In this document: positions 32,791 to 52,854 of the stretch, piece by piece
Numbering within the stretch: the first letter of the stretch is position 1
How the letters are laid out: every line of letters begins with the position of its first letter
Source of the DNA: Methylosinus sp. Sm6
Lineage (GTDB): Bacteria; Pseudomonadota; Alphaproteobacteria; Rhizobiales; Beijerinckiaceae
Length of the DNA: 64,000 nucleotides
Direction of reading: 5' to 3'
NCBI RefSeq assembly: GCF_019802345.1
Contig: NZ_JAINDZ010000020.1
Span: 1 to 64,000, forward strand
The notes under the pieces: model-generated
Database searches by the model: none
Told to the model about the DNA's origin: nothing
What the model saw: only the letters and a program-made list of their open reading frames with translations
Translations under genes and position numbers: made by a program

Positions 32791-32888
32791 ACGCATATAT
32801 ATCTATAATTCATATAAACTATATAGACATATGCAGACGCTTGTTATATAAGCCATTGCTGGCCCATAGTAAGATGAGGTCGACAGCG

Positions 32889-35973: not shown

Positions 35974-36067
35974 TCGAAGGCCTTTCATGAGAATCGTCCG
36001 ATCGGCCGCTGTCGCGGCCGAAAGCAGCTCGCGAACTTGCAACCGATGATGATCGCAATCGGTCCAA

Positions 36068-37147
36068 TCAAGCCAATCTTCTCACCTCCGCGATGAGTTC
36101 CCGGCGTAGCGCTGTATCCTGCTCGGTCTCGGTCGACGCTTCGATCTGCGCGATATCGACGCCCGCGCGATGGAACGCGACAATCTGATTGGCGACGCTG
36201 CCGACAGAGCCGACGAGGAGATTGTCGAATGCGCGGCGAAAATCGTCGAGCGCCAGAGCGCGCAGATCGAAAGCGCCCGTCGCGAGGCGCTCGTCGCTCT
36301 CCCGGTTTCTCGCCGTTTGAGCTGACGCCGCGATTTCGGCGAGCGGGCGGCAGCTCAATAATTCTTCCGCCCTGCGGCGAAGCCTGTCGGCGATCTGTCG
36401 TGCGCCCGTATCTGTCTCTCCGAGCACCACCTTGAAATATTTCCAATATCTTAGACGCCGACCGTGTTGCGACGCAATTCCGCCGACGCGGTCGACAATG
36501 TTTCTCGTCTCCTCGACAGTTGGAAAGGAGGTGGCGTAGATATCCGCATATCGTGCGGCGAGATGCATAGCGGCCTCGGATGATCCACCGATGGATATGG
36601 GTGGACGAGGCTGCTGAAACGGACGGAAACCCACCCAAGCGTCCCGCACGCGATAATATTTTCCCTCGTAATCGAAAGGCTCCGCGGATTCCAGAGCCTT
36701 GGTAAAGACATCGAGATATTCTGCCGCGCGTTCATATCGTTCGGCCTTTGGAGAGAAGTCGCCGTCGCGCTGAACATCGACGTCGCTCGAGCCGATGACG
36801 ATGTGAACGGCGGAGCGTCCGCCCGACAGCTTGTCGAGGGTAGCGAAAGACCTCGCAGCGACAGTCGGTTGTGTGACTCCAGGACGGTGGGCTACTGTAA
36901 TCCGCAGGCGCGTCGTCGCGGACAGCGCCCAACCGGCGACGAGCCACGGATCTGGCCAAGCGCTGTAGATCGTGACCAAAGCGCTGTCCAAACCATCACT
37001 TTCCTCTTGCCGCGCTTTTTCCTGAACAAAGGCGGCCTTGACATCGCGGTTGCGCGGATCGGGAAGCGTCCTCGCGGCCTGACGGTCGAACGCAGTGTCG
37101 CCGGGAAGAGCAGCGGCGCGGACCCCTCCACGAATGTCGATGGTCAT
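36068..37147 (-). CDS. LLM-class flavin-dependent monooxygenase
   Basis: A 359-residue bacterial luciferase-like enzyme of the SsuD/alkanesulfonate or NtaA type. LRITVAHRPGVTQPTVAARS (near residue 80), LDKLSGGRSAVHIVIGSSD (near 103) and RDGDFSPKAERYERAAEYLD (near 125) are family blocks, followed by PPISIGGSSEAAMHLAARYADIYAT. Such enzymes use FMNH2 and O2 to cleave C-S or C-N bonds or oxidise heterocycles. ATG 37147 has AAGGAG upstream; the frame extends to 37183. It is 37 bp downstream of the TonB receptor. The pairing with a nitroreductase suggests a two-component monooxygenase. Confidence 0.9.
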   Translation of the reverse strand: MTIDIRGGVRAAALPGDTAFDRQAARTLPDPRNRDVKAAFVQEKARQEESDGLDSALVTIYSAWPDPWLVAGWALSATTRLRITVAHRPGVTQPTVAARSFATLDKLSGGRSAVHIVIGSSDVDVQRDGDFSPKAERYERAAEYLDVFTKALESAEPFDYEGKYYRVRDAWVGFRPFQQPRPPISIGGSSEAAMHLAARYADIYATSFPTVEETRNIVDRVGGIASQHGRRLRYWKYFKVVLGETDTGARQIADRLRRRAEELLSCRPLAEIAASAQTARNRESDERLATGAFDLRALALDDFRRAFDNLLVGSVGSVANQIVAFHRAGVDIAQIEASTETEQDTALRRELIAEVRRLA

Positions 37148-37183
37148 GGCGAAATGCTCCTTGTTGATCGCCCGCACGGTCAT

Positions 37184-39679
37184 CTAGAATTTGTAAGCCA
37201 TACGGGCATAATAATAGCCTCCGTTGACGCCGAAGGGCGAGAACGTCGGGAACACCGTCGCATTGTAGACCCGCGTGGACAAAAGCGTCTCATTGGGTCG
37301 AACGGCGAACAAATTATTCGCCCCGATCGCCGCGTGCAGGCCGCCGCCGAAGTCATAACCGATTTCGGCGTCGGTAATGACTTTCGGCGTTATCACATTC
37401 GTATAGTAGGGCGCCGTATCCGTCGTCGGCGTCGCCGACACCGCCGAAACGGTTCCGTATCTAGTCAGCCGCAATGAGAAGGTCCATGCATCTTTCAGAT
37501 AGGTGGCGCCGAGAATGATCTTCGTATGCGGCGCCCAATCAGTGATGTTCGAACGCGCCACCGGATCGAGGAGCGGCGCGCCATTGAACGCTGCAGGCGC
37601 CTCGCTCACGCGCAGAATGCTAGTGCTGTTGAAGCTTGCCGCGAAATCGAATCGAAATGCGCCATATTGGTCGAAATCCACGGCATAATCCGCTTTGATG
37701 TCGACTCCACGCGTGCGGGTGTCTGCGCCGTTGACGAAATAGCTCACGGTCGCATTGGCGGTCGGATCGATGACATTGCCGCTCGCCGCGATCGCGGCGA
37801 CCGCCGTGGGGCCGGTCAAGGCCCCCGTCGAAACGATGCGGTCGCGGATGTCGATCTGATAGAGGTCGACGGATCCATGCAACCCCGGCGTTATCTCGGT
37901 CACCAATCCCACACTGATATTCGTCGACTTTTCGGGTCGCAAGGACTGTGCGCCGGCGATGGCCGCCGCATTCGAGTTGGGCGGCAAGATCACATAGGCC
38001 GAGGTCGGCGACACTGCAGATTGCGAGAAATATTCCTCCGCCAATGTGGGGGCGCGAAATCCAGTGCTCAATGTGCCGCGCACAGCCAATTCCCGCGAGA
38101 AATCGAAGCGCGTGGAGAGCTTGCCATTGAGCGTGCCGCCGAAGTCGCTGTAGTTTTCATAGCGTCCGGCGACATCGACCTTCCAGTTCGGGAGGAGCTT
38201 CGTGCTCACGTCGACATAGCCCGCATAGACGTCGCGACCATGGCTGCCGGCGTCGGTTGGCCGAATTCCAGCGAAAGCGGCAGGGCCGGCCGAATAATAG
38301 GACCAAAAGTCGCCTTGCTTGATTTGATAGGTTTCACGCCTGTTTTCCGCGCCGATAGCGATATTGATCGGCTCCGGCGCGATGCTCAGCGAAAACGGTT
38401 TGATGAAATCGACGTTGATGGTCCGCTGAGTGCTCGAATACTGCCCGATATAGAAACTCGTCGGCGTCCAACCGGCGCCTGTCGTTGCGAGCGTATCGTT
38501 GAACAAGGTTCTGTTGGCGGAGTTGTTCAGATTGACGTCAACGGTGTCGCCGCCATAAGTCACGCTGACGTCCCACCGCCCATCCCCGAGGAAGGCTCCC
38601 TTCGAACCGATCGTGCCCGACCAGTCATACTCGCTTATCTTCTCCGTCGGAACAAAGCCATTGGGGTAGATGACGGCGTTCGAGGATGTCCCATTGAAGT
38701 CTGGCGCTCGGTAGTTCTGGAAGGATTCGGCGACGCGCGTTCCGCCTGTACCAAAGGCGTAGAGCTCATTTCCATTATCGAGTTCGAAACCCGAATTGAC
38801 GCCGAACAGAGGCAGAAAATATTTAGGATCTCCGATGACGGCGGCGACATTCGGATCAATCCATGGATAAGGGGTGCCGGGGCCGACGCGCAGACCATCC
38901 TGGAACGCATTCTGATCCGACCCGGTCTGATTGCTGTGCAAATGAGACGTCAACTGCCCGCTCAGGTGCACGAAACCGCGCTCGCCGAGATGGAACCCTT
39001 TGTCGATTTGTACATTTCGAGTGAAGCCGTCGCCGAGCGAATTGGGATTGTAGCTCTTTCCATATCGACCGACGACTGCGTCGATTTCGCCCGTATCGGG
39101 CGAATTCTTCAGGATGATGTTGACGACGCCGGCGATCGCGTCGGATCCGTATTGAGCGGCCGCGCCGTCCTCCAAGATTTCGATGTGGTCGACAGCCGAG
39201 ACCGGGATCAGATCGAGATCGGCGCCGGCCGAACCTTTTGGGAAGCCGCCGGTGGAAATGACGGCTGTTCCATGCCGGCGCTTACCGTTGACGAGGACGA
39301 GAACATGGTTCGCCGTGAGCCCACGCAGACGCGGCGAACGGACGAGAGCGCTCAAATCAAAATTGACGGCGTTGGCGTTATAGGACGGCGCAAGACGTAG
39401 CAGCGCATCCAAAATATTCGTCTGACCCGTTTCTTTCAACTTCTCCGAACCTATAATCGTAATAGGCGAAGAACTTTGTCTGGCCTTGACCCCATATTCA
39501 CGCGTGCCGGTCACAATGACATCCTCGACCGCGGCTTCCGCTGGCGCTGGATGAACGTTGGCTGAAGGGGCCGCTCGAGCGCCAATTGGCGCGCCGAGCG
39601 CCAGAAGGCAGACGCTCATCCATCCTTTCTGGTTGAAAAAAGCAGCGAGGTATTCGCACTCACATCTCGTGTGCAACAT
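37184..39679 (-). CDS. TonB-dependent outer-membrane receptor 1
   Basis: An 831-residue receptor. Signal peptide MSVCLLALGAPIGARA begins near residue 21 of the frame; a TonB-box-like EDVIVTGTR is near 52. The plug domain contains NILDALLRLAPSYNAN, RLRGLTANHVLVLVNGKRRH, DLIPVSAVDHIEILEDGAAA and YGSDAIAGVVNIILK. The 22-strand barrel follows and ends in YYYARMAYKF with a terminal Phe. It resembles receptors used by sphingomonads for organic substrates. It is first in the operon with the LLM monooxygenase, nitroreductase and amidase, and operator 1 lies 98 bp upstream. ATG 39679 has no strong ribosome binding site, so the exact start is uncertain. Confidence 0.93.
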   Translation of the reverse strand: MLHTRCECEYLAAFFNQKGWMSVCLLALGAPIGARAAPSANVHPAPAEAAVEDVIVTGTREYGVKARQSSSPITIIGSEKLKETGQTNILDALLRLAPSYNANAVNFDLSALVRSPRLRGLTANHVLVLVNGKRRHGTAVISTGGFPKGSAGADLDLIPVSAVDHIEILEDGAAAQYGSDAIAGVVNIILKNSPDTGEIDAVVGRYGKSYNPNSLGDGFTRNVQIDKGFHLGERGFVHLSGQLTSHLHSNQTGSDQNAFQDGLRVGPGTPYPWIDPNVAAVIGDPKYFLPLFGVNSGFELDNGNELYAFGTGGTRVAESFQNYRAPDFNGTSSNAVIYPNGFVPTEKISEYDWSGTIGSKGAFLGDGRWDVSVTYGGDTVDVNLNNSANRTLFNDTLATTGAGWTPTSFYIGQYSSTQRTINVDFIKPFSLSIAPEPINIAIGAENRRETYQIKQGDFWSYYSAGPAAFAGIRPTDAGSHGRDVYAGYVDVSTKLLPNWKVDVAGRYENYSDFGGTLNGKLSTRFDFSRELAVRGTLSTGFRAPTLAEEYFSQSAVSPTSAYVILPPNSNAAAIAGAQSLRPEKSTNISVGLVTEITPGLHGSVDLYQIDIRDRIVSTGALTGPTAVAAIAASGNVIDPTANATVSYFVNGADTRTRGVDIKADYAVDFDQYGAFRFDFAASFNSTSILRVSEAPAAFNGAPLLDPVARSNITDWAPHTKIILGATYLKDAWTFSLRLTRYGTVSAVSATPTTDTAPYYTNVITPKVITDAEIGYDFGGGLHAAIGANNLFAVRPNETLLSTRVYNATVFPTFSPFGVNGGYYYARMAYKF

Positions 39680-39776: not shown

Positions 39777-39793
39777 ATTACCTCGGAGGTAAT
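39777..39793. promoter_or_regulatory. 17-bp palindromic operator 1 (ATTACCT-CGG-AGGTAAT)
   Basis: A perfect inverted repeat with seven-base arms and a three-base spacer, 98 bp upstream of TonB receptor 1. The same arms and spacing occur at 42482 and 51849. The rest of the 301-bp gap 39680-39980 holds no gene I recognise. Confidence 0.8.
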
Positions 39794-39980
39794 ATTTTGA
39801 CGAAATCTCGTTCGTCTTCCTCGCTCTGGTCGAGCCGTTGCGCTGCTCGCCCACGGCGATCTCGCCGACGATGGTCGGTAGAGAATTCGATGGCTATCGA
39901 TCGGGTCGACATCGCTCTTCATAAGCGGCGGCGCTCATCGACGAGGCGCGCACGCAGCGCTTCCGCGCGACAGTATCGGA

Positions 39981-42410
39981 TCACCATTTTGCAGCGAGCG
40001 TTACGCCGGCCATCAAGGGCGCGCCAACCGTGCCCGAAACGAGGCCTGCGCCCACTTGCAGAGCAGACTGCTGGTTCGTGTAATATTTCTGATCGAGAGC
40101 GTTATGTATCCATCCGACGAGCCTCCAGGCTTCGTCGTTGCTCTGGACGCCGACGTGCAGATTGAGGATGCCGTATGGGTGAATGATGCTGTAGATCGAA
40201 TCGCTCGTCTCCGAATAAACCGTGCTCTGCCAATTGAAATCGCCCCCGACGAATCCGAGCAGTGGCTTGTCCAGAAGGGGAAGTGTCGCGCCGATAGGCC
40301 GCTTGTATTCGCCGCCGACGGAGAACGACCAGCGAGGAACGATCGATAGGCGCTTGCCGGTGAAATCACAGGTCACATAGAGATTGGATACCTCCACGGG
40401 GCACGGCGCAGATTTAAAGGAATCGAAATAAGCATCGTTGAAGGTCGCCGAGCCGTACAAGTTCAAGCCTTCGATCGGCTGAGCCCGCACATCTGCTTCG
40501 ATGCCGCGTGAAATTGCGCGCTTCGCATTCGACAGAAAGCGTGTCGCGGTACCCCCCGATGAACTCAATTCCGCGACATTGGTGATGTAATTGCGGTCGA
40601 CTATCCAAAATGCAGCCAGATTGGCGAGAAGCCGCTGATCGAAAAACTCGCTCTTTATGCCAATCTCAAAATTGTCGAGTTCTTCCGCCTTCACCGTCGG
40701 TTTCGCCCCGACCGGCAAGTTGGCGGCTGCAAAGGCGATGTTCGGGCCGCCCGGACGAACGCCATGCGAATAGGTGGCGTAACCCAGAACGTCGGGCGAA
40801 AATTTATATGCGACGGATATCAGCCCCGAAGGAAGGCCCTCATGCGTCGCCGCGCTGTAATAGTAATAGGGAGGACCGAGCTGGTTGCTTCGCAAGGTCG
40901 CCGCCTGCAGTTGCTGGTTCGCGGTAAGGCCATCCAGTGATTGACCATATACTTGGCCAGTGGCCGCCGCCGATTTCGCTGTGTAGGAATAGCGCAAGCC
41001 CGCGCTGATATCGAGATTGGGAGTCACATGCCAGGTCGCGTGTGAAAAGGCTGCAATGCTGTTGGTCTGGACATTTGCGTAGCTGTTCCGATTGAGCCAA
41101 TCGAGCGCCGTCTTGTCGACTAGAGTTTGTTCAACGGTGGTCGGGTTGCCGAACCAAACGCCCGCTTGGCTGCCGTAACCCAACGAGTACCACAGACGAA
41201 ACTGCTCCCGATAGTAGAATAGGCCTGCCGTCGCCTCGATCGCCTCGCCGGGCGGGGTGGATATTTTCAGCTCCTCTTGAAAGGACTGAGCACTCGTCAC
41301 CGGATTGAGCACCCTATGCGTGTCGACATTGATTTGCGAGTTTCCTGTTTGATTTTGATTGAACCCATACTGTCGAAAAGCCGTTAGAGAGGAAAGCAGA
41401 TATCCGTTCAGATTGTAGCGAATATCAGCGGAACCGCCGTAGCTGTCGACCCGTTCGTAGAAGCTCTGTGCGGCAATGTCGGTGGCGTAATGCGAGAGCG
41501 CATCGAAGGATGAGGGCGCATAGCCGACCTTTGCGGCGCGAACAAAAAAGTTATTTGGAAAGGCCGCGCCATTCGCGTATCGCGTCACGGCCCCATTGGG
41601 CAAAAATAACGAGTTGGCCGTATTGGCGTAAGAGTAATCGACAATGACGCGAGCGGTCAGGTCATTGTCCGGCTGCAACAGCAATTGGGCCCGCACCCCC
41701 TTGTCATGCCAATCATTGTAGCGCTTTCCGGTCGTCGTGCTCGAACTGTATCCGTCGCGGTCGACCCCGTAGATAGACAGGCGAAACGCGGCTTTGTCGC
41801 TGCCGGCGATCGCTCCGGTCAGGCTTCCTTTGAGCTGGACGTGATTATACGTCCCATATGAAATCGCCAGCTTCGACTCCGGCTCGAAGGATGGCATGGC
41901 GGTGCTGATATGAACGGCGCCGCCAGTACTATCCCAGCCTCCTTTCGTCGATTGGGGTCCTTTCAGGACTTGTATGCCGACGAGATCCGGCACATCCGTC
42001 GTCCACGCCCCGGGACGCGCGAAATAGACCCCATCGACATAGATCGGGACCCCGTTGAAAATGCTGCTGAGATCGCTCGCATCCGAATTGCCTATCCCAC
42101 GCACGTTGTAAGTGAGATTTTGAGGACTCGTCTGCTTTATAACCAAGCTCGGCACGAGCTTTCTCGCTTGCTCCAAATTGTCGATTTGCGCTGCGCGAAT
42201 TTGATCTCGGGTTATGATGGTCGCAGCGACTGGCTTCGATTGTAGTGCGGTCGCTTGATTGTCGGCGTTCGTCGCCGAGGTAACGACGACATCCTCTACC
42301 GTCGTGGAATCGGTCGGGGCTTGCGCAACAGCGCCGATCGGAAACAGCATGATCGCCGCAGTCGCTAGCGCGCTGCTCGAAGTCAATCTCCACGTCTTTC
42401 GTAACCTCAT
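39981..42410 (-). CDS. TonB-dependent outer-membrane receptor 2
   Basis: An 809-residue receptor. Signal peptide RKTWRLTSSSALATAAIMLF...GAVAQA (about 29 residues), TonB-box-like VEDVVVTSA near 38, and plug blocks NLEQARKLVPSLVIKQTSPQ, NLTYNVRGIGNSDASDLSSI and LVGIQVLKGPQSTKGGWDST. The barrel ends in VTLAAKW with a terminal aromatic. It resembles the sphingomonad-type receptors linked to aromatic or xenobiotic uptake. GGGAG lies six bases before ATG 42410, and operator 2 is 72 bp upstream. It follows the two transporter genes but has its own promoter region. Confidence 0.93.
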   Translation of the reverse strand: MRLRKTWRLTSSSALATAAIMLFPIGAVAQAPTDSTTVEDVVVTSATNADNQATALQSKPVAATIITRDQIRAAQIDNLEQARKLVPSLVIKQTSPQNLTYNVRGIGNSDASDLSSIFNGVPIYVDGVYFARPGAWTTDVPDLVGIQVLKGPQSTKGGWDSTGGAVHISTAMPSFEPESKLAISYGTYNHVQLKGSLTGAIAGSDKAAFRLSIYGVDRDGYSSSTTTGKRYNDWHDKGVRAQLLLQPDNDLTARVIVDYSYANTANSLFLPNGAVTRYANGAAFPNNFFVRAAKVGYAPSSFDALSHYATDIAAQSFYERVDSYGGSADIRYNLNGYLLSSLTAFRQYGFNQNQTGNSQINVDTHRVLNPVTSAQSFQEELKISTPPGEAIEATAGLFYYREQFRLWYSLGYGSQAGVWFGNPTTVEQTLVDKTALDWLNRNSYANVQTNSIAAFSHATWHVTPNLDISAGLRYSYTAKSAAATGQVYGQSLDGLTANQQLQAATLRSNQLGPPYYYYSAATHEGLPSGLISVAYKFSPDVLGYATYSHGVRPGGPNIAFAAANLPVGAKPTVKAEELDNFEIGIKSEFFDQRLLANLAAFWIVDRNYITNVAELSSSGGTATRFLSNAKRAISRGIEADVRAQPIEGLNLYGSATFNDAYFDSFKSAPCPVEVSNLYVTCDFTGKRLSIVPRWSFSVGGEYKRPIGATLPLLDKPLLGFVGGDFNWQSTVYSETSDSIYSIIHPYGILNLHVGVQSNDEAWRLVGWIHNALDQKYYTNQQSALQVGAGLVSGTVGAPLMAGVTLAAKW

Positions 42411-42481
42411 CGCCTACTCCCTATACGACGCTCAATGAACTCAAGTCGAATTAAGCTACGTCGAATGGCGTTTTTCGCTCA

Positions 42482-42498
42482 ATTACTTCGAAGGTAAT
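42482..42498. promoter_or_regulatory. 17-bp palindromic operator 2 (ATTACTT-CGA-AGGTAAT)
   Basis: Same architecture as the sites at 39777 and 51849, with one arm base changed (ATTACTT for ATTACCT). It is 72 bp upstream of TonB receptor 2, between that gene and the MFS gene ending at 42652. Confidence 0.75.
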
Positions 42499-42651
42499 AT
42501 CGATCGCGTGTCACGGCGACCACGCATCCGCGGACGTGGGAAGAGCTCTTGCGCAATCGCGCCGACAAGGGAGCGAATGCGATCTCTGGAGTCCGCTCGA
42601 TGCTCCCCCGCTATTTTTCCGGCGGTGTATCGATAGTGAAGACCGTCATTG

Positions 42652-43815
42652 CTACGGTGCGACGCCGCTCATGCGCGACTGCCGCAGCCGAGAGGAGGCC
42701 AAGCCGGACAGCATTGCGAGGAGAATGACGACACCCCCGACATAGGCATTGGTCTGCGGGGAGAAATGATCCATCACCCCCGCCCCGATAAACGATCCGA
42801 AAGCGACGCCCAGTTGAATGGCGGAGGTGTTGATGCCGAGCTGAAACGATGCGGACGAGGGGGTTTGCTCGATCAGATATTTCTGGATCGCCGGTCCGGG
42901 CGCCATATTGAAGACGCACCACAACATCATGAGCGCGAGCAGGCTGGTCAATGAGATGGTGCTGGCCGGAAGAGCGAGCACGGCAATGGCATGCAACGGC
43001 AAGAAAGTCAGGAAAGTTTTCTGCGCGCTGAGCTTGTCGGTCGACCACCCCCCCAGCCACGCGCCGAAAATGCCACCGACGCCGTACACCAGTAGCACCA
43101 TACTGATCGTGACAGGGTCGAGGTCCATGGTTTGAGCCAGGAAGGGGCTGATATAGGTAAAGATCGTAAACTGGCCTGTCATCTGCAGGAGGGAAGCGAG
43201 ATGGGCGAACACGGATTCTTTGTCGAGCGTCGTTCCCATCTTCTTCCGTAGAGGCGCAGCGGGCGCGCCGGGCAACTGGCGCAGTTTGGACCGCACGACG
43301 GGTATGATGAGAATCGTCACCGCCGTCAAAAGGAAGAAGGTCATTCGCCAACCCCACTGCACGCCGACCAGCGTACCCAGCGGAACGCCCAGCACCAGGG
43401 AAGCGACGATGCCGGAAAAGATCATGCCGATGGCCCTGCCGCGCTGATCCTCCGTGACCATTGCCGCCGCCAAGGTGATCGCCAGCACGACGATGATCGA
43501 ACAACTGGACGCAACGATGATTCGCGACGCCATCAGGAGCAGGAAGCTGCCGCTCGCCGCGCTGAGCAGATTGGCTCCGGCGAACACCACAAGGCTCGTG
43601 ACCAGCAGCTTGCGGCGTTCGATATGCGAGGTCAGCGATATCAGCACTGGAGCGCCGAGCGCATAGACCAGCGCGTAAACGGTCATCAATAGGCCTGCCG
43701 ATCCCAGCGAAATCTGAAGATCTCGGGAAATTCCGTCGAGAATTCCGGCGATGACCAATTCGGCGGTTCCGACTACGAAGGCCAGAATCGCGAGGATGAA
43801 CACGCTAGGATTCAT
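42652..43815 (-). CDS. MFS transporter (DHA1 drug-efflux type)
   Basis: A 387-residue inner-membrane protein with 12 predicted helices. Helix 1 is FILAILAFVVGTAELVIAGI, and the AEL.I.G.L start is typical of AraJ/NepI-type DHA1 exporters. The helix 2-3 motif is reduced to SHIERRKLLVTSLV, and helix 5 has GVPLGTLVGVQWGWRMTFF. It probably exports a small molecule. ATG 43815 overlaps the stop of the upstream MFS gene (43812-43815). The frame is open far upstream, but that part is antisense to the other transporter. Confidence 0.9.
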   Translation of the reverse strand: MNPSVFILAILAFVVGTAELVIAGILDGISRDLQISLGSAGLLMTVYALVYALGAPVLISLTSHIERRKLLVTSLVVFAGANLLSAASGSFLLLMASRIIVASSCSIIVVLAITLAAAMVTEDQRGRAIGMIFSGIVASLVLGVPLGTLVGVQWGWRMTFFLLTAVTILIIPVVRSKLRQLPGAPAAPLRKKMGTTLDKESVFAHLASLLQMTGQFTIFTYISPFLAQTMDLDPVTISMVLLVYGVGGIFGAWLGGWSTDKLSAQKTFLTFLPLHAIAVLALPASTISLTSLLALMMLWCVFNMAPGPAIQKYLIEQTPSSASFQLGINTSAIQLGVAFGSFIGAGVMDHFSPQTNAYVGGVVILLAMLSGLASSRLRQSRMSGVAP

Positions 43816-45161
43816 CTCGTCAAACTCCGATGTTCGCGCATGTGGTCGGTCCGGCGCATCTCGCCCTCGCCCTCGACTTCGACCTGTTCGACATCGGTTG
43901 GCGCTGGCTGTGGAAACGGCCCGCAGCCATCCATCGGACGGCGCAGCTCGTAGCGATATGGGCCGAGGAGCAGCAATAGGCCGATGGCGACGACGAGTGC
44001 CGCGTCGAGCGCCCACAAGGCGGCGACATAGGAGCCGTGCTGATCGAAAAGATATCCGAGCAGATAGGAGCCGAGGCCGATCGAGAGCGCGAAAGTGAAC
44101 GGCTGAATCGATCCATAAATGACGCCGAAGCGCCTCAGTCCACAGTAGCGGCTCACAAAATATTGCGTCGAGCCGCTCTCCCCGCCGCCGCCGAATCCGA
44201 CAAGCAGAATGGCGAGCGGCAAAAGCGTGTTTTCGGGCCCGGCCTGCAACAGCAATAGGCCGGCGAGCGCGACTGCCGCGAACGGCAGGACGATCCGCGG
44301 TGTGTCGAAACGATCGAGCAAATGCCCCAGGACCGGCTGCGAGAGGCTCATCCCGATCCAAAGCATCGAGAAGGTCGCAGCCGCGTCAGTTCTGGACAGT
44401 CCGCGTTCGATCAACAAGGGCACGCCATGAGTGATGAGACCGGACATCACGAATACGGTCAAAACGAGATTGCCGATGACGAGCCAGAACCTTGCAGAGA
44501 GCCACGCTTCGACCAGCGTGTCTCCCGAATGGGCGTCGGGGAGAGGCCTGTCGTCGGCCGTCGACCACGGGCGCCGAGGTTCATGGAACAGCAGCCAGAT
44601 GAGAGGCGCGGCGACGACGAGTTCCGCTCCGCCGTAGAACAGATAAGACTGGCGCCATCCGAACGTATCGACGCACCAGCGGCCGACGACCAGGCTGAAG
44701 ACGCCGCCGAGGCCGAAGCCGAGCCCGAACAATCCATATGCCAAGCCTCGCCGATGTGTGAACCACATCCCGATGATCTTGCCGTAAGGCAGGTTTCCAG
44801 GCGCTAGAAGTCCGATGAAACAGAAAAGGCTTCGAATGGCGAGACCATTCTCCGCAGATGCGAGCGCCGAGATCGCCAACGCTAGCAAGAAGGTGAGCAA
44901 CAGCAACATCGGGCGAAGCCCGTAGCGATCCATCAACCAGCCTTTGACCGGACTCCCGAGCGCCACCGACAGACCGAAAAGCGTAATCATCGAGGACGCT
45001 TCCGTGCGGTCCCAACCGAATTCATCGCTCATCGGCTGGATAAACAGGCCGAAGCTATTGAGCATGAAGCCTGTAGGGCCGAGCATGACGCCGATGATCG
45101 AAACGATGAGGACTCCCGTCGCCGAAAGAGAAAATTCTGTTAGCGAAGTTGGACGCATCAT
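43812..45161 (-). CDS. MFS transporter (monocarboxylate/OxlT-like)
   Basis: A 449-residue 12-helix transporter. MLGPTGFMLNSFGLFIQPMS with DEFGWDRTEASSMITLFGLS is the monocarboxylate-type N-terminal signature, and GSPVKGWLMDRYGLRP is the helix 2-3 loop. The tail is polar and charged. This group usually moves organic acids, so it could import or export an acidic compound handled by the island. GGGAG lies four bases before ATG 45161. Having an OxlT-like and a DHA1-like carrier side by side with translational overlap suggests paired transport of a substrate and a product. Confidence 0.9.
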   Translation of the reverse strand: MMRPTSLTEFSLSATGVLIVSIIGVMLGPTGFMLNSFGLFIQPMSDEFGWDRTEASSMITLFGLSVALGSPVKGWLMDRYGLRPMLLLLTFLLALAISALASAENGLAIRSLFCFIGLLAPGNLPYGKIIGMWFTHRRGLAYGLFGLGFGLGGVFSLVVGRWCVDTFGWRQSYLFYGGAELVVAAPLIWLLFHEPRRPWSTADDRPLPDAHSGDTLVEAWLSARFWLVIGNLVLTVFVMSGLITHGVPLLIERGLSRTDAAATFSMLWIGMSLSQPVLGHLLDRFDTPRIVLPFAAVALAGLLLLQAGPENTLLPLAILLVGFGGGGESGSTQYFVSRYCGLRRFGVIYGSIQPFTFALSIGLGSYLLGYLFDQHGSYVAALWALDAALVVAIGLLLLLGPYRYELRRPMDGCGPFPQPAPTDVEQVEVEGEGEMRRTDHMREHRSLTR

Positions 45162-45246
45162 TTTCTCCCGTGGCGTCTGAAACGATATCGAACCACTCCG
45201 CAGCGCCGGCGCTGGACAGATTGAAGCCGAATGGCCGATCAGTAAT

Positions 45247-46803
45247 TCATGTCTCCGACCGACGCTTCGAGCAGCGCCACACTCGAACCATTATGTCCGT
45301 GACGTATCCATCGTCCCGCATTCGTCGTTCGGCGATGGCGCCCGTCGCCGCGAAAAACTCCGCGGCGCGCTCCGGTCCGACCAGCCCGCTATAGTAGGTG
45401 CCGAACGTCGCCGCGTGAAAGCGCTGGTACTCGGCCGAATCTCGCACACGCAGCACCGCCCGGCGCTCGGAAACCGAGTCGATCGCGAAACAGCGCTCCA
45501 GCAGGCGTCGAAGAGCGGACATGTCGCGGGTGCGGGTTCCAAGCGGAATAATGCCAGCCTCGCGGAATGTTTCGGCGACCGTGTCCGTTCGGCAGACGCC
45601 CATGTTGGCAAGCGCCTGCCGCACGATGTCGTCCTCCCCGCCGAGGCATTCATCGTCGTGGTCGGGGTGATGCGACGTCAGGAGAAGAACCCCTCCTGGC
45701 GCAAGATTTTCGCTGATCCACCGGAATGCGTCCGCCTCCTGCGGATACAACCAGTGCAGCACCGCCGTCATGGTCATCAATTCGGCTGGATGCTTCAGTG
45801 CCGGCGCTTCCAGCAGATCTCCTTCGATCAGTGTCAGCCGGTCACCAAGAAAGCCGAGCCGACGCCTCGCCGTCTTGAGGCGCATCGCGGATTTCTCCAG
45901 CCCGGTCACCGACTGCAAGTCCGGCCAGAGCGACGTCGCGGCTTCGAGCAGGCTCCCGATCCCGCAGCCGAGATCGGCTATGCTATGGGGAGAGAAACCG
46001 GCGAGTCCGAGCACCCAATCTTCGTCGCGACGCTGGAGAAGCGCGCTGGCTTCCTCATACCCAGCTAATGCGCTCGCCTGGTCGACGATCGTGCCAGCTA
46101 TCCTCTCTCGTTCGATCGCGATATCGATCTCGACTTCGGCCGACAGCTCTACGCTCGCGGCGCCATTCTCGAGCCGCGCGGAGGCCGGAAATGGGCGAAT
46201 GGCCCATTCGCAGCCGTGCCCGGCGTCGTTCTCGAAGAGGGTCCATTGAGGATGACAGCCTTTTGCCTGGACGAGGGCGGACAGTAGCTTCGTGCAAAAC
46301 GTACAAGCGGATTCCAGAGTGATCGGAGTGCCGGAAGCCCGCGCATGTTCGCGGTAATCCCAGATTGCGCAATGCGTATTGGTGAAAATGCCGACATCCG
46401 GATCCTCGTTCGCGATCTCGTAGATCGAGCCGTAGAGTTCCGCGTGCCGCGCGAGGCGATCGACGGCGGCGGCGGGAATAAAATAACCGTCCGGCTCGAG
46501 CGCGCGAGCGACATCGCCCGTCGCTTCTGCCCAAATGTCCAGTTCGGCCGCACCGTAATGTTCGACGATGAATTTTTCGATGAGCGCCTGAGCTCGAAAG
46601 AACGCTCGCTTCCAGCCCTCGATATTCGTGCTATGAGGCGCCGGCAGATCGGAATAGATCTGGGCGCTCACCTCGACCCATGGAGTGATGTCTCGTTTTG
46701 CATGACGCTGCAGAAGGGTCTGCGTCATTGCGGCCTGTGCCTCGAACAGGCGCTGTCGCCATAATGCCGCTTTTTCGTCTGTGCCGATCGATATCTTGCT
46801 CAT
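45247..46803 (-). CDS. two-domain SAM-dependent methyltransferase
   Basis: A 518-residue protein. The C-terminal part is a class I methyltransferase: SIADLGCGIGSLLEAATSLW (motif I, near residue 290), TLIEGDLLE, AELMTMTAVLHWLYP and LAPGGVLLLTSHH. The N-terminal 260 residues form a separate domain with helices and the Cys/His-rich block ACTFCTKLLSALVQAKGCHP then NDAGHGCEWAIRP. That pattern faintly recalls L-2-amino-thiazoline-4-carboxylate hydrolase-like proteins, but I cannot confirm it. It may select the substrate. ATG 46803 (MSKISIGTDEK) has no good ribosome binding site; ATG 46866 is an alternative. It lies in the main island operon between hydrolase and transporters. Confidence 0.8.
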   Translation of the reverse strand: MSKISIGTDEKAALWRQRLFEAQAAMTQTLLQRHAKRDITPWVEVSAQIYSDLPAPHSTNIEGWKRAFFRAQALIEKFIVEHYGAAELDIWAEATGDVARALEPDGYFIPAAAVDRLARHAELYGSIYEIANEDPDVGIFTNTHCAIWDYREHARASGTPITLESACTFCTKLLSALVQAKGCHPQWTLFENDAGHGCEWAIRPFPASARLENGAASVELSAEVEIDIAIERERIAGTIVDQASALAGYEEASALLQRRDEDWVLGLAGFSPHSIADLGCGIGSLLEAATSLWPDLQSVTGLEKSAMRLKTARRRLGFLGDRLTLIEGDLLEAPALKHPAELMTMTAVLHWLYPQEADAFRWISENLAPGGVLLLTSHHPDHDDECLGGEDDIVRQALANMGVCRTDTVAETFREAGIIPLGTRTRDMSALRRLLERCFAIDSVSERRAVLRVRDSAEYQRFHAATFGTYYSGLVGPERAAEFFAATGAIAERRMRDDGYVTDIMVRVWRCSKRRSET

Positions 46804-46899
46804 GCGTACAAATCCAACATTACATTCTCGAACAGAACGCGCCTGCGCATCGATGCGCGCTTTCATGAGCGACAGGCGCCGTCATGCCTATCCTCGCCT

Positions 46900-47820
46900 C
46901 TATGCCTGATGTAGCTCTTCGCCGTTATGCGCTTCGAGAAATGGCAGGAGCTGTTCGAGAACGGCGTCGGGCGCATCTTCGGGTAGCATGTGACTGGCGC
47001 CCTCGATCGGAGCCCCGCGAACATCGCCGCAAACCCATTTCCTCCAGATCGAGATCGGGTGACGGGATGCATCCGGATAGGGCCGATCCTGCCACAGAAC
47101 CAAGACCGGACACGTTATTCGACGATCGGTTGCACGGTCGGCGGCATCGGCCGCGGTGTCCGGCCCCAAGGCGGCGCGATAGTCCTCACACATCGCATGG
47201 CGGACGGACGAAGAGCGAAACGCCGTGCGATATGCGGCGAGAGCCTCGGGATGATAGATGTCCCGGCCGTTCGACATCGCGACCAGCGTTCGGTCGAGAA
47301 AATAATCCGGTTCTGACGCCAGAAGCTTTTCCGGAAGATCGAATGGCTGCGCTAGAAAAAACCAATGATAGGCGCGGGATGCGAAGGCCGTATTGACTTG
47401 GTCCCAGACGTCGATCGTCGGAATGACGTTCAATGACGTCAAGCTGACGACGCATTCGGGGCTATCGAGCGCGAGGCGGTATCCGACACGCGCGCCGCGA
47501 TCATGACCGACGACGGCAAATTTGTGATAGCCCAGCTGCGCCATGATTTCCTTCTGGTCGCGAGCGAGCGCCCGCTTGGTGAAAGCATCGGATTGGTTTG
47601 GCGCGGACGCGGCAGATTCGCCGTAACCACGCAGATCGGGAATCACCACTGTGAACCGCTCGGCGAGGGCCGGCGAGATTTTGTGCCAAGCTGCTCGGGT
47701 CTGCGGATAGCCATGCAGGAGAAGGACGGGTGGTCCGCCGCCTCCGGTCACGAGGGCTATCTCGCCGCCGGATGTCGCCAGCGTGACTTTCCGAAAATTA
47801 GGGAAGAGTACGTCTTCCAC
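46900..47820 (-). CDS. alpha/beta hydrolase of the haloacetate dehalogenase type
   Basis: A 306-residue alpha/beta hydrolase. The nucleophile elbow is VGHDRGARVGYRLALDSPE (near residue 104), with Asp as nucleophile rather than Ser. DLRGYGES is near 62 and HGYPQTRAAWHKI near 36; YHWFFLAQPFDLPEKLL near 151 contains the His-Trp pair that binds halide in fluoroacetate dehalogenases; the catalytic His is in GASHMLPEDAPD near 280. The start is GTG 47820 with GGAG/AAGG upstream. By motif it should cleave an alpha-halo acid or an epoxide or ester of similar shape. The true substrate is unknown. Confidence 0.87.
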   Translation of the reverse strand: MEDVLFPNFRKVTLATSGGEIALVTGGGGPPVLLLHGYPQTRAAWHKISPALAERFTVVIPDLRGYGESAASAPNQSDAFTKRALARDQKEIMAQLGYHKFAVVGHDRGARVGYRLALDSPECVVSLTSLNVIPTIDVWDQVNTAFASRAYHWFFLAQPFDLPEKLLASEPDYFLDRTLVAMSNGRDIYHPEALAAYRTAFRSSSVRHAMCEDYRAALGPDTAADAADRATDRRITCPVLVLWQDRPYPDASRHPISIWRKWVCGDVRGAPIEGASHMLPEDAPDAVLEQLLPFLEAHNGEELHQA

Positions 47821-47898
47821 GACCTTGTCTCCAACGGTGGCCGCTATGCCTGGCGCGAGTAAACTCGTGAGAGGCCGGTGACGCGCGATAAGAGCACA

Positions 47899-48507
47899 TC
47901 AGACGATGATGCTGATGCGACGCTGAGACGCCATGGACTCGTGATCGAGCCGCGTTATTCTTTCCAGTATTTTCAATGCTCCTTGCCTCTCTCGCAGTTT
48001 ATACGACGTCTCCCCGACGAACTCCCACGATTGCAGGTTCCTGAATTGATAGATGACGAAATTCGCCTTGACTCGGACGATGCCGGATTTGTGCTCCAGA
48101 ACGCGAATATTCGATATTATCCTGCGCGTTCTCGATCGTGGAACTTCGGCCAGAGCGCTTTTTTCAAGCAAATGCCGAATCCGCGTCTCGAGCCGCGTAT
48201 TGTCGTCGGACACCAAATAGAGGCTGTTTTTTGGGTTGCTGCTCTCAAGATACTGCAACGGCAAGACCTGATAGCGTCCCTCGTCGTCAAACAAAGACAA
48301 CCATTCATTCAGATCCCAATCGTCGAGCAGAGCCGATTCGAAGAAAAGAAACGATGTGATACGTGATGTCAGCTCGGCAGGGGGTGTCGGAATCGGAGCG
48401 GGCTGATATCCCTCGCGCGCGACGAGCATGCTGGTCATGGGCTTACTCCATGCTATTGCAAACTGCATAATCTGCGATTGCGTTATATTTTCGTGCTCAT
48501 TCCTCAA
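47899..48507 (-). CDS. aromatic-ring-hydroxylating dioxygenase beta subunit
   Basis: A 202-residue protein of the small-subunit (SnoaL-like cystatin fold) family. Blocks are FESALLDDWDLNEWLSLFDD (near residue 54), GRYQVLPLQYLE, YLVSDDNTRLETRIRHLLE and the conserved RTRRIISNIRVLE. It pairs with the Rieske alpha subunit at 50446-51747. Its ATG overlaps the stop of the amidotransferase gene (48504-48507). The beta gene is thus separated from alpha by the amidotransferase, an unusual order. Start M near 48507 is used; an internal M at residue 24 (MTSMLVAREGY) is possible. Confidence 0.88.
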   Translation of the reverse strand: MRNEHENITQSQIMQFAIAWSKPMTSMLVAREGYQPAPIPTPPAELTSRITSFLFFESALLDDWDLNEWLSLFDDEGRYQVLPLQYLESSNPKNSLYLVSDDNTRLETRIRHLLEKSALAEVPRSRTRRIISNIRVLEHKSGIVRVKANFVIYQFRNLQSWEFVGETSYKLRERQGALKILERITRLDHESMASQRRISIIV

Positions 48508-50339
48508 TGGTAGGAGATGTCGACGTTGTATTGTCGAAGCCAGCTGTCCAGGTTGAGAAGATAGGACATTCCCGCCGTAGGGCTCGCGGATGCGCGCGGG
48601 CTTGGCAGGGGACGCCCTTGTTCCAGCAACTCGGCCACTTTTGCAGGGTCGACGAGTTCGAAGACAGGCGCGCCGGGGGTAGAGAGAAGCTCCAGCGTTC
48701 GTTGACGCAGGCTCGCCAAATATTGGCGATTTGGATTGCTTGGAAAGCCGCTTTTTCGTCGTCTAAGGACTGATTGCGGCAGTAGGTCCGCGACAGCGCG
48801 CCGCAGCAGAGACTTTCCCTCTCCACCTTCATTTTTGTATCGCCACGGCAAGTTCCAGACATAATCCACGAGATGGTGATCGCAAAAGGGAACTCGGACT
48901 TCGAGACCGGTGGCCATGCTCATGCGGTCTTTTCGGTCGAGCATGGCGGGCAGCCATCGCGTCAACGCCAGATAGGATACTTCCCGCATCCTCTTGTCTA
49001 TTTCGTTCTCGTCCTCGATTGTGGGAACTTCCTCCAGCGCCTCGCGATAGCGACTTTCCACATAGTCCGCCGGCCGTATCGCGCTCTCCACTTCCGCCCT
49101 GAACAGGGTCCAGGGACTGCTCTTGTCGAGCAACCAAGGAAAGCCGGAATATGCTAGTGCGTCTCTATTATGAAAAAATGGGTAGCCTCCGAAAACCTCA
49201 TCTGCGGACTCGCCCGAGAGCGCCACCGTCGTGTGCTGCCGAACCTGCTTGAACAAAAAATAAAGCGATGTATCCAGCTCGCCCCAGCCCGGCAGATCAC
49301 GGGAATGAAGGACAGCATTTTCATGTGTGAGAGCAGATTCCGGAGTAACCAGGATCGTTCGGTGATCAGTGCCGACGTGCCGGGAAACTTCCAGCGCGAA
49401 TGGTTCGTCCCAACTATCCTGCCAGGCCGATGGGATGAACTCCGCCTGCCCATCAGGAAAATCCACAGAGAATGTCGGTAGCTTCTCTCCTCGGCGTTGC
49501 GCGGTCCGAGCGGCGAAGGCGGCGATGGCGCTGGAGTCGAGGCCTCCTGAGAGAAGTCCGCCGAGTGGCACGTCGGAAACCATCTGCTGTTCGACTATTT
49601 CTTCCAGCAACCGCCGGACATGATCGACGGAATCCTCCAAGCTGTCGCGATGCTCGGTCGCCGCGAGCGACCAATAGTTGTGAGATTCCACCCCGCGTCT
49701 CGATACTCGGATGGCCTCTCCAGGTTTGACTTGATAAAGGCCTTTATAAACGCCGTGCCCGGGAGTCGGGGCTGTGCTGAGGGCGAAGAGTTCCGCGATG
49801 CCAGTGGCATCCAATTCGGGCTTGACCGTTGGATTTGCGAAGATCGCCTTCGGCTCGGAACCAAAGATCACCCCAGAACTGGTCGGCAGATAATAAAGTG
49901 GCTTTATTCCGAACCGATCCCGAACGAGCCACAACTCGTCGCGTCCACTGTCCCAAATCGCGAATCCATACATTCCCCGCAATCTGACGAAGGACTCCCT
50001 TCCCCATTCCAGGAATGAGCGAAGCACAACCTCGGTATCCGAGCGCGTCCGGAATTCATGCCCCGCTCTCGCGAGCTCCTGACGGAGTTCTACGAAGTTG
50101 TAGACTTCTCCGGCATAGCTGAGGATAAAAGGATCTACGGCGACGGTCGACATCGGCTGCCGTCCGAATTCCAAATCGATGATCGACAATCGACGATGAC
50201 CGATAAAAGCATGTCGCGACACCCAGCTGCCCTCGGCGTCCGGTCCTCGTAGCGCCATTGAGCGGATCATGGCGGCGATCGTCGATCGCTCTTCCCGAAG
50301 ATCGCGGCGCCAGTCTATCCAGCCTACTATTCCGCACAT
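48504..50339 (-). CDS. asparagine-synthetase-type glutamine amidotransferase (AsnB-like)
   Basis: A 611-residue enzyme. MCGIVGWIDW starts the class II glutaminase domain with Cys-2 as nucleophile, so ATG 50339 is certain. RGPDAEGSW, GHRRLSIIDL, SYAGEVYNFVELRQEL and SDTEVVLRSF follow. The synthetase domain has the PP-loop LLSGGLDSSAIAAFAA near 262, then LSGESADEVFGGYPFF near 375 and LTRWLPAMLDRKDRMSMATG near 485. It should use glutamine and ATP to amidate a carboxylic acid. Within this island the acid may be a product or substrate of the dioxygenase rather than aspartate. It overlaps the beta subunit gene and starts 106 bp after the alpha subunit gene. Confidence 0.93.
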   Translation of the reverse strand: MCGIVGWIDWRRDLREERSTIAAMIRSMALRGPDAEGSWVSRHAFIGHRRLSIIDLEFGRQPMSTVAVDPFILSYAGEVYNFVELRQELARAGHEFRTRSDTEVVLRSFLEWGRESFVRLRGMYGFAIWDSGRDELWLVRDRFGIKPLYYLPTSSGVIFGSEPKAIFANPTVKPELDATGIAELFALSTAPTPGHGVYKGLYQVKPGEAIRVSRRGVESHNYWSLAATEHRDSLEDSVDHVRRLLEEIVEQQMVSDVPLGGLLSGGLDSSAIAAFAARTAQRRGEKLPTFSVDFPDGQAEFIPSAWQDSWDEPFALEVSRHVGTDHRTILVTPESALTHENAVLHSRDLPGWGELDTSLYFLFKQVRQHTTVALSGESADEVFGGYPFFHNRDALAYSGFPWLLDKSSPWTLFRAEVESAIRPADYVESRYREALEEVPTIEDENEIDKRMREVSYLALTRWLPAMLDRKDRMSMATGLEVRVPFCDHHLVDYVWNLPWRYKNEGGEGKSLLRRAVADLLPQSVLRRRKSGFPSNPNRQYLASLRQRTLELLSTPGAPVFELVDPAKVAELLEQGRPLPSPRASASPTAGMSYLLNLDSWLRQYNVDISYH

Positions 50340-50445
50340 GATCGTCACCGTTCGCCGTTGTCGGAGAATAAAGTCAGTCGCGGTCGCGCTCTCGATGTCT
50401 GCGAGGCGATTCACGAACTAGAATTTTTCGGGTTAAGCGAGAAGT

Positions 50446-51747
50446 TTATAGTCTCTCCGTGCTTACCGAACGAACAGACTCGGATGAACCAGCGCGCGTC
50501 CGTTCGGCGCCTATCCGCCTGCTCCATTCACGCCAAAAAGCGCGGTTTTGCTCCTCGTCGGTATGGTGTTGCGTGCCTGGACTCATGCCGCGCGAGAAAT
50601 CATTGTAGCCAATGCCGGCATGGGCGTAGGCGCGCTGACACGACTCGAGGAGTTCGACATCGTCAGGCGTGCCGAACCCGCCCGGTCCGATGAAAGAGAT
50701 AAGCCCGTTGATTCGCGCTGCCCTCTCCTCCTCGGTCTCATCAGAGAAGCCCGCGCCCCATACGGTGACGTCCACGGCGTCGAACGAGGTTGGAAAGAAC
50801 GTCCTGACGTTCAATCCGAGAATGTCGTTGATCACGAGGTTGGGGAAAATGAACAAGCTCTTGTTGGCATGAGCGATTTCTTCTGCTCTATTCTTGCCGT
50901 ACTTCGTCACCAGCGCACGAAATCTTCGATTGATTTCGTCCTTCATCCACTCTGGAAAGAGCGGGCTCCAATAAGCGATTGGACGGCCGGTGGACGGTGG
51001 ACCGCTGATAATGACCGAGTGGCCTCCGCTGAGCGGAAGTCCTTTTCCTATTCGCTTATGCGAACTGGGCTCGCCGCCCAACGTATCGATGTATTCGAGG
51101 AAACGTTTGTGCGTAAAAGGAAGATGGTATGCGTCCACGCCATTTTCCGCGAGGAGCTTCCAGTTCGCGCGTATCGAGTGATTGAATTCGCCCGGAATGA
51201 TTTCCAACTCCGATTCCGACTGCGCGCAAATCAAGTCGATATACGCCTTTGCTTCGCCGAGGTAATCCTCGAGGTCCTGCTCGGGGGCGACGTAAGAAAT
51301 GAAAATGAGGCCTCGATAGGTTGAATGATGGATCGGATTTAGGCTGAGATTCGAGTCGTTGCGAGCCTCCCGACCATATGCCGATCCTCCCGGCAGACCG
51401 ACCAGTCGGCCGTTCAGATCATACGTCCAGCCGTGATATGGGCAGGAAAAGCTCTGGGCGTTGCCTCTCGCCTCCTGACACACGATCGTCCCTCGATGGG
51501 CGCAAGCGTTCAACAAGACGTTTAGCTCTCCGAAAGTTGTCTTGGTCAGAATGAGGTTTCGTCCGCCCACGTTGCGGCGAAGAAAGTCCCCCGGCGCGCG
51601 AAGCTCGCTGACGTGTCCCGCATAAAGCCAGCATCTATCGAAAATATTCTCGAGCTCACTGCGATAAATATCTTGCAGAACATACGCGGAGCGGTGAACA
51701 CGAAAGAAGTTTGCTTGATCGGTAACGATGATTTGTGGATCGGCCAT
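50446..51747 (-). CDS. Rieske non-heme iron dioxygenase alpha subunit
   Basis: A 433-residue aromatic-ring-hydroxylating oxygenase. The Rieske motif is CAHRGTIVC...CPYHGWTYDL near residues 81-110. The mononuclear iron site is AENGVDAYHLPFTH near 218, with Asp and two His in the usual D-x2-H-x4-H spacing. The start follows AAAGGG, and operator 3 is 102 bp upstream. No ferredoxin or reductase gene is present in the island, so electrons must come from elsewhere. It is first in the main operon with asnB, beta, hydrolase, methyltransferase and the transporters. Confidence 0.93.
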   Translation of the reverse strand: MADPQIIVTDQANFFRVHRSAYVLQDIYRSELENIFDRCWLYAGHVSELRAPGDFLRRNVGGRNLILTKTTFGELNVLLNACAHRGTIVCQEARGNAQSFSCPYHGWTYDLNGRLVGLPGGSAYGREARNDSNLSLNPIHHSTYRGLIFISYVAPEQDLEDYLGEAKAYIDLICAQSESELEIIPGEFNHSIRANWKLLAENGVDAYHLPFTHKRFLEYIDTLGGEPSSHKRIGKGLPLSGGHSVIISGPPSTGRPIAYWSPLFPEWMKDEINRRFRALVTKYGKNRAEEIAHANKSLFIFPNLVINDILGLNVRTFFPTSFDAVDVTVWGAGFSDETEEERAARINGLISFIGPGGFGTPDDVELLESCQRAYAHAGIGYNDFSRGMSPGTQHHTDEEQNRAFWREWSRRIGAERTRAGSSESVRSVSTERL

Positions 51748-51848
51748 TGCGGTCTACCCTTTGGAATCACAGCCAATATCGGTTCCGGGCGATAAAAGGC
51801 TCAAGAGCACGAGTTTGCGTAAGTTTACCTGCCTGATGGAGTTCATCA

Positions 51849-51865
51849 ATTACCTGACAGGTAAT
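51849..51865. promoter_or_regulatory. 17-bp palindromic operator 3 (ATTACCT-GAC-AGGTAAT)
   Basis: Perfect seven-base arms with a three-base spacer, 102 bp upstream of the dioxygenase alpha gene. It is the third member of the site family at 39777 and 42482. The surrounding interval 51748-52005 has no gene. Confidence 0.8.
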
Positions 51866-52005: not shown

Positions 52006-52854
52006 TCATATTGAATTTCCCTTCGTTTTTCCCTGTTTTCCCAAACTTTTCGATCCCGGTTTGGGCGATTTGTTCCCTTCCCGCCCCGCCTCCAATCTCA
52101 GTATTGCCGCCTCGGCCAGCCGCTCTTGATCCGCGTCGCGCGTATAGCGCTCCGCTTCGGCGAGCGTCTTGTGGCCGAGGATCGCCATGATTTCGCGCGC
52201 CGAACAGCCGGCCTCGGCGAGGCGCCGGCCCGCGGCCTTGCGCAGGCCATGCGGCCGGCATTCGAGCGGGAGCCCCGCCTCGGCGATTGCGTCTCGCATG
52301 AAGCCGGAAAAGCCGTCGACGGTGAAGGGCTTGCCGAACGCTGTGTTCAAGATCGTGACATGCTCTCGCGCCGCAACGGCGAGGATGGCCCGCAGATCGC
52401 GGTGAAGCGGTATGACGAGGCGCGCGCCTGTCTTTTGCTGCGTCAATCGGATCGTATCGCCCGTCACATCGCCCCAGGTCATTCGATGCACGTCCGAGCG
52501 GCGCTGCCCGGTAAAGAGCATCACCGCGAAGGCAAGGCGCTCGCGCGTGCCGACCGGCCAGCGCTTTTCGAATTGCTTGATTTCATGCTCGGACCAGGAC
52601 CGAATTTCGTGCGTCTTCGGCCGCTTGATCCCGAGCGACGGGTCATGCTTCAGCCAGCCGATATCGATAGCGTGGCGGATCAGCACCCGGAGCATCTTCA
52701 AAATGGCGAGCCGCTGGCCCGGCCGATCGGCGTAGGGCTGCAAAATCTTCGTGATGATCCCTTCGCGCGCCCCCTTGCCACGCCGGAAGTATATTCACAG
52801 TTTACCATGCCGATCCGTCCAGGCTTCAACATGGGGCGGGCGCTTGCGCGACAT
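52006..52854 (-). pseudogene. tyrosine recombinase (phage-type integrase), nonsense mutation and internal deletion
   Basis: The catalytic domain is readable: TGQRRSDVHRMTWGDV (Arg box I), ECRPHGLRKAAGRRLAEAG (HxxR) and ILGHKTLAEAERYTRDAD with the nucleophile Tyr. Upstream, in the same frame, is MSRKRPPHVEAWTDRHGKL, a TGA at 52795-52797, then IYFRRGKGAREGIITKILQP. The stop falls where related integrases have Arg (GKLRIYF), so CGA to TGA is likely. The N-terminal core-binding domain is also shortened, RGKGAR joining too soon to ITKILQPYADRPGQ. It is probably inactive. It marks the right edge of the island. Confidence 0.8.

Follow-up and report, generated by a model that had tools for sequence, protein, structure and literature searches.

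The regulator family to which MmyB and MltR belong is known, and according to the accessible parts of the literature such XRE-type proteins read palindromes (PMC3406030, PMC12565409, PMC7532634). For MltR of Chloroflexus aurantiacus (Caur_2278, PDB 3pxp), a predicted dimer is described as reading two successive palindrome major grooves, and MmyB, from the methylenomycin cluster of Streptomyces, has been suggested to recognise pseudo-palindromic 'B-boxes' (both in the passages seen of PMC3406030). According to the accessible text of a 2025 collection of palindromic XRE motifs, 223 clusters of motifs were predicted in front of XRE genes, and nine of the ten cases put to the test showed binding (PMC12565409). 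The passages available on MltR-type XRE regulators give no operator sequence, though such regulators are widespread. Here we analyse three 17-bp palindromes in a gene island of Methylosinus sp. Sm6 (contig NZ_JAINDZ010000020.1, positions 1 to 64,000; this whole stretch of 64,000 nucleotides is the window). They lie upstream of two genes for TonB-dependent receptors (TonB1, TonB2) and of a dioxygenase operon, and our analyses predict, with a probability of roughly 0.86, that they are operators of the island's own MmyB/MltR-type XRE regulator, the candidate binder.

Three palindromic sites and a candidate regulator

A sequence-only reading had placed three matching sites at 39777, 42482 and 51849 and had noticed no other in the window. 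All three were found there (Table 1), and a window scan allowing up to three mismatches returned these sites alone (0.27 expected). Three matches were reached in 0 of 100 dinucleotide shuffles of the window. Operator 2 departs from a perfect palindrome by one arm base, and the flanking sequences differ among the three operators. The operator edges lie 97 bp (TonB1), 71 bp (TonB2) and 101 bp (dioxygenase alpha subunit) from the start codons. We scanned the whole genome (162 contigs, 5,133,925 bases) with ATTACYT-N3-ARGTAAT at up to two mismatches, using the reversed pattern as a control. This gave nine sites, the three island operators with no mismatch and six others with two. The island operators are the only matches with zero or one mismatch in the 5.13-Mb genome, and no match of equal quality lies outside the island. 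The six two-mismatch sites were left out of the regulon because their count is near the control level (six versus four). Separately, a perfect 7-3-7 palindrome two changes away from the operator, ATCACCT-CAT-AGGTGAT, was seen at G000:C101:5264-5280 (L007).

The candidate regulator, encoded at 32889-33740, scores 41.1 bits against HTH_31 (a helix-turn-helix (HTH) model; cut-off 27) and 37.5 bits against MLTR_LBD (PF17765; cut-off 26.3). MltR (3pxp) was the top fold match of its predicted model (mean pLDDT 81), with E 3.9e-11 over 296 alignment columns, TM 0.42-0.46 and a poorly matched domain arrangement (rmsd 17). In a sequence-profile search, 3pxp was the sole entry matched past the HTH region (E 1.5e-05); HTH-only chains scored higher. 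Used as a query in its own genome, the protein found itself alone at E<=0.01. It is the single detected regulator of MmyB/MltR type in the genome and lies inside the island, which agrees with its earlier nomination as the candidate. The only other PF17765 protein found in the genome, C74, is a strong paralogue in this domain; it was rejected as the regulator because its HTH differs (GSTWYTWLEQGR) and no site with fewer than five mismatches lies at its locus. Just 5' of the XRE gene, at 32795-32860, the DNA is highly A+T-rich and contains short palindrome-like repeats; this is the position that the operator occupies in relatives.

We propose that a dimer of this protein would bind the 17-bp palindrome directly upstream of, and touching, a -35-like element at three promoters. 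One ligand-sensing protein would control 12 genes in three units: TonB1, a luciferase-like (LLM) monooxygenase, a nitroreductase and an amidase in unit 1; TonB2 alone in unit 2; and dioxygenase alpha, an amidotransferase, dioxygenase beta, a hydrolase, a methyltransferase and two MFS transporters in unit 3. The C-terminal domain of the XRE protein would sense the imported compound or its product; the signal ligands expected for this regulator family are fatty-acid-like or of furan type.

Association of the site with the regulator family

The exact pattern was searched for in 397 genomes of the order and 372 genomes of the class, with reversed-pattern controls. In the order scan it occurred in 20 genomes, our own included (control: eight sites in seven genomes), and in 18 of the 19 others an HLSF-type XRE HTH lay inside the 3-kb stretch around the site. 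The MmyB-like XRE proteins bearing this HTH are homologous to each other. The class scan gave 16 genomes, again including our own (control: one site), with the HTH in the stretch for 12 of the 15 others; G868 had two exact sites, on different contigs. Combining both scans, a regulator gene lies within about 1.5 kb of an exact site in 30 of 34 other genomes (19 order, 15 class). Regulator genes of this kind are sparse (150 order genomes gave 46 matches, and 40 of them had at least one), and we therefore estimate that chance alone would place a regulator within 1.5 kb of a given site about twice in 10,000 cases, as an order of magnitude. Genomes with one match (34 of 150) and with two (6) are about as frequent as estimated for chance. 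As background, the HTH pattern was found in none of 80 distant-dioxygenase loci (1.45 Mb), which come from mixed phyla and so are not a matched control; they represent dioxygenase relatives in a species-level genome collection (at least 80, those listed being 27-42% identical). No other genome in the order scan had exact sites at separate promoters. Three tandem operator copies exactly 22 bp apart were observed upstream of an MmyB-like XRE gene at G180:C38:13037-13097 (L103/L127).

The association was also profiled from the side of the regulator. Among 48 XRE loci from outside the window (29 found with a profile, 3 and 7 from further searches and 9 from plasmid records), the HTH was readable in 46. 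A site with up to three mismatches lies 143-196 bp before the HTH in 37 of these 46 genes (4 exact, 16 with one mismatch, 8 with two and 9 with three), as against 5 of 459 control windows of 300 bp taken elsewhere in those loci. The two loci with an unreadable HTH, L166 and L171, have sites at one and two mismatches somewhere in the locus. The 29 profile loci are the best-scoring ones for a profile whose source proteins were mostly regulators discovered next to sites, which makes this sample partly circular, and five of their genomes (G005, G015, G055, G071, G126) overlap with the site list; the site is present in 22 of 27 profile-derived loci and in 15 of 19 loci found by the window protein alone. 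Copies from Cupriavidus, Burkholderia, Xanthomonas and Sinorhizobium (one record each) have one-mismatch sites. Two Streptomyces family members lack the 17-bp site (best matches with six and seven mismatches), and the best in a Nonomuraea copy has four. In this comparison, one and the same 17-bp sequence is a mark of the promoters of this regulator family, whether in Alpha-, Beta- or Gammaproteobacteria, and this strongly supports the earlier proposal of one DNA-binding protein for the three island units, with the XRE protein as the candidate. The recognition helix of the window XRE (SPKHLSFLETGR) follows the pattern S-x-[RK]-H-[LVI]-S-F-x-E-x-G-R, in which S, H, S, F, E, G and R are invariant in 16 of 16 aligned proteins.

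Of 10 congeners, three have both exact sites and strong XRE hits (our own genome, G564 and G577), and the other seven have neither. In G564 the island is complete, its three sites included, at 93-98% DNA identity. An insertion of about 1.26 kb in G564 (C5:1291059-1292324, L111), whose protein we read as an IS3-type transposase and the element as IS3-type, ends eight bases from operator 2 and leaves the operator intact. G577 has a diverged, rearranged island on a 14.7-kb contig (L186, C443), with identities of about 70-71% for XRE, 73% for the amidase, 79% for the nitroreductase, 79% for TonB1 and 74% for TonB2. Both receptor genes are cut there, TonB1 by the contig end; two amidotransferases stand in tandem (63% and 42% identity), and an SsuA-type binding protein and a fatty-acid hydroxylase are added. 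One G577 site precedes the earliest possible start of a binding protein-nitroreductase-amidase unit by 97 bp, and the second lies 134 bp upstream of TonB1. In our reading of the gene spacing, these would be both target promoter regions visible on the contig. The DNA upstream of TonB1 in G577 is hardly alignable with that of the window, yet ATTACCT-N3-ARGTAATTGCTC (the site and the next five bases) is conserved. The sites are kept in both related islands, operator 1 in G564 and G577 and operators 2 and 3 in G564. The sequence-only reading had named numerous equal matches across the genome, or loss of the sites from related islands, as grounds for refuting its proposal; neither was observed.

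Promoter geometry and competing explanations

For the 37 sites found before the regulators' own genes, the consensus is longer and reads CG-ATTACCT-N3-AGGTAAT-[TG]G. In 18.2 of these 37 (ties shared), the best TATAAT-like hexamer begins 21-23 nt past the site; in 500 shuffles this count averaged 3.9 and never exceeded 9.1. The same distance is favoured by TANNNT hexamers, where 29 of the 33 found between 8 and 36 nt lie. An operator that touches the -35 region fits either occlusion of RNA polymerase or activation by contact with it.

Between these modes of control we lean slightly towards repression released by ligand, because the promoters look usable unaided and a studied XRE protein, MsrR, represses; the choice is close to even because MmyB is an activator. 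Somewhat short of even odds is the alternative that the ligand-bound XRE activates the promoters in the manner of MmyB, with the dimer beside the -35 element. The site centre would fall at about -43 to -44 if the -10 element lies 22-23 nt downstream, and the lambda CI dimer beside the -35 element at its own promoter is a model for such activation. However, a TG directly after the operator completes an abutting TTG at 3 of 3 island promoters and 2 of 2 G577 sites, and TATAAC, close to the consensus, is present at the promoter of the G577 binding protein; these promoters may therefore need no help. The characterised proteins point in both directions in the passages available: MmyB is reported to switch its cluster on upon signal molecules (PMC3406030), whereas MsrR represses itself and its neighbours (PMC7532634).

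Several observations weigh against assigning the sites to the XRE protein. Its own promoter (upstream of 32889) lacks an operator, the best match having five mismatches, whereas most relatives (37 of 46) have one in theirs. The protein is 23-28% identical to 14 of the 15 co-aligned proteins (about 70-71% to the one from G577) and has K instead of R at one recognition-helix position; K is also present in six site-bearing homologues, L195, L197, L198, L199 (3 mismatches), L208 (1) and L210 (exact). Nine of the 46 family genes are without a site (L146, L147, L151, L152, L156, L200, L203, L205, L207). No recognisable HTH was found at 4 of the 34 site loci, namely L102 from the order scan, on a 7-kb contig, and L209, L212 and L214 from the class scan; L214 has NTF2-like and small membrane genes that by eye resemble those commonly lying beside these regulators. 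In G487, two weak hits (E 2.5e-7 and 2.4e-6) cover the HTH region alone, and no site is present; G552 (L187:7579) has a one-mismatch site without an XRE hit, directly before a gene that we read as ArsR-type. Because the DNA around the sites is 87-98% identical in G564, their conservation there counts for little by itself. Finally, the TonB1 promoter has no TANNNT -10 element at the expected spacing.

The missing site at the XRE promoter, the ArsR-type neighbour in G552 and the four loci without an XRE HTH would also suit a regulator of another family (e.g. MarR, TetR or GntR) encoded elsewhere, with the XRE protein as a bystander. We consider this improbable, since the association holds in both directions (an XRE HTH at 30 of the 34 site loci; a site at 37 of 46 regulator promoters versus 5 of 459 controls) at a near-fixed distance and, among the 10 congeners, those with exact sites are also those with strong regulator hits. 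It is hardly credible that the palindromes arose by chance, or that they belong to a repeat on mobile DNA, as the integrase and relaxase-like genes nearby in the window might suggest; this explanation is already contradicted by the absence of equal matches elsewhere in the genome, the shuffles, the differing flanks of the three sites and the G577 site that is conserved while its flanks diverged.

Target units and comparison with known systems

All three target units are on the minus strand, their genes are separated by short gaps, and we infer the unit limits from this spacing (Table 1). The tail-to-tail overlap of the amidase and XRE genes is present in G577 as well. The XRE gene is not divergent from a target in the window, unlike the actinomycete pattern, in which regulator and target genes diverge from a common upstream region; in G577 it is divergent from TonB1.

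Table 1. Coordinates of the operators, putative promoter elements, candidate regulator, target genes and other features in the window
Feature	Position	Strand	Sequence or domains	Remarks
Operator 1	39777-39793	-	ATTACCT-CGG-AGGTAAT	upstream of TonB receptor 1 unit; sequence scan
Operator 1, putative -35-like element	39777-39772		TTGCTC	
Operator 1, possible -10 element	39750-39745		TATAGG	26 nt, unusual distance
Operator 2	42482-42498	-	ATTACTT-CGA-AGGTAAT	upstream of TonB receptor 2; sequence scan
Operator 2, putative -35-like element	42482-42477		TTGAGC	
Operator 2, putative -10-like element	42458-42453		TAGCTT	23 nt
Operator 3	51849-51865	-	ATTACCT-GAC-AGGTAAT	upstream of dioxygenase operon; sequence scan
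Operator 3, putative -35-like element	51849-51844		TTGATG	
Operator 3, putative -10-like element	51827-51822		TAAACT	21 nt
XRE regulator (candidate)	32889-33740	+	HTH (PF13560/PF01381) and MmyB-like ligand-binding domain (PF17765)	
TonB-dependent receptor 1	37184-39679	-		first gene of unit 1; start 39679
Luciferase-like (LLM) flavin monooxygenase	36068-37183	-		unit 1
Nitroreductase-family flavoprotein	35104-36042	-		unit 1
Amidase	33722-35107	-		end of unit 1; tail-to-tail with XRE gene, 19-base overlap
TonB-dependent receptor 2	39981-42410	-		unit 2; start 42410
Rieske ring-hydroxylating dioxygenase, alpha subunit	50446-51747	-		first gene of unit 3; start 51747
Glutamine-hydrolysing asparagine-synthase-type amidotransferase	48504-50414	-		unit 3
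Ring-hydroxylating dioxygenase, beta subunit	47899-48507	-		unit 3
Alpha/beta hydrolase	46900-47820	-		unit 3
Class I methyltransferase	45247-46866	-		unit 3
MFS transporter	43812-45161	-		unit 3
MFS transporter	42652-43830	-		last gene of unit 3
Three tRNA genes	23223-23770			
Relaxase-like protein	27691-30006		DUF3363	
Tyrosine-recombinase fragment	52006-52743			island edge; G564 similarity stops at 52002

The best named model for the LLM monooxygenase is alkanesulfonate monooxygenase, with a score far under the model cut-off. Together with the SsuA-type binding protein of G577, this enzyme is a hint of organosulfur chemistry, and the fatty-acid hydroxylase of G577 is a hint that the compound may be a lipid. 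At the N terminus of the methyltransferase, some 240 residues are without a match to any Pfam model; a relative of this stretch (41% identity) is free-standing in G577 (L186:2429-3265), without the methyltransferase part, and CxxC and HGC-type motifs are, by eye, common to both copies. The DUF3363 protein, the recombinase fragment at the island edge and the three tRNA genes may be signs of an integrated mobile element.

Two further congeners, G463 and G431, have a related dioxygenase (L142-L145; alpha subunit 65% identity, beta 48-50%), together with a TonB2 relative (47-48%) and, identified by eye, genes for MFS, methyltransferase and hydrolase proteins close to a gene of LysR type. Neither the XRE regulator nor the 17-bp site was found in these clusters, where the module is apparently under another regulator. 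In a collection of 945 plasmid records, no dioxygenase relative of at least 60% identity was found, and the island had no near DNA match except for 103 bases of a TonB gene.

A broader interpretation, to which we give about even odds, is that the nearly invariant ATTACCT-N3-AGGTAAT serves an entire branch of MltR-type XRE regulators in three proteobacterial classes as a common DNA code, normally for self-control. In this island it may have been shifted from the promoter of the regulator onto three separate promoters, creating a mobile, substrate-specific regulon for the import and modification of one compound, sensed by a domain of lipid-binding type. A conserved 17-bp operator would let MltR-type regulons be read from genome sequence alone, and a known site would offer a direct test of many uncharacterised regulators. 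The island itself would tie two outer-membrane receptors to a dioxygenase/amidotransferase pathway. With a shared operator, a compound that induces any one of the three promoters would be expected to induce the other two as well, and the search for it becomes narrower.

Two points look new: the operator is identified for the family as a whole, and it is used at three separate promoters of an uptake and modification island, with none at the regulator. Among the papers listed in our search of openly accessible texts, we recognised none giving this operator; the accessible text of the 2025 motif collection lacks ATTACC, TTACCT and AGGTAA, and its Table S1 could contain the operator (PMC12565409).

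Among the described systems, MltR resembles the window XRE in joining an XRE-type HTH to a PAS-like ligand-binding domain, but the two proteins share about 17% identity and the orientation of their two domains is not well matched. According to the passages available, the MltR gene lies near a multidrug-resistance (MDR) gene and a gene with a beta-lactamase domain, not in an uptake and dioxygenase island (PMC3406030). MmyB belongs to the same regulator family as the window XRE and differs from it as an activator from an actinomycete antibiotic cluster. MsrR of Corynebacterium glutamicum is described, in the text seen, as an XRE regulator with a site in the promoter region that its own gene shares with a divergent MFS gene, through which it controls both; it differs in being a thiol-oxidation sensor acting at a single locus, whereas the operators described here lie at three separate promoters (PMC7532634).

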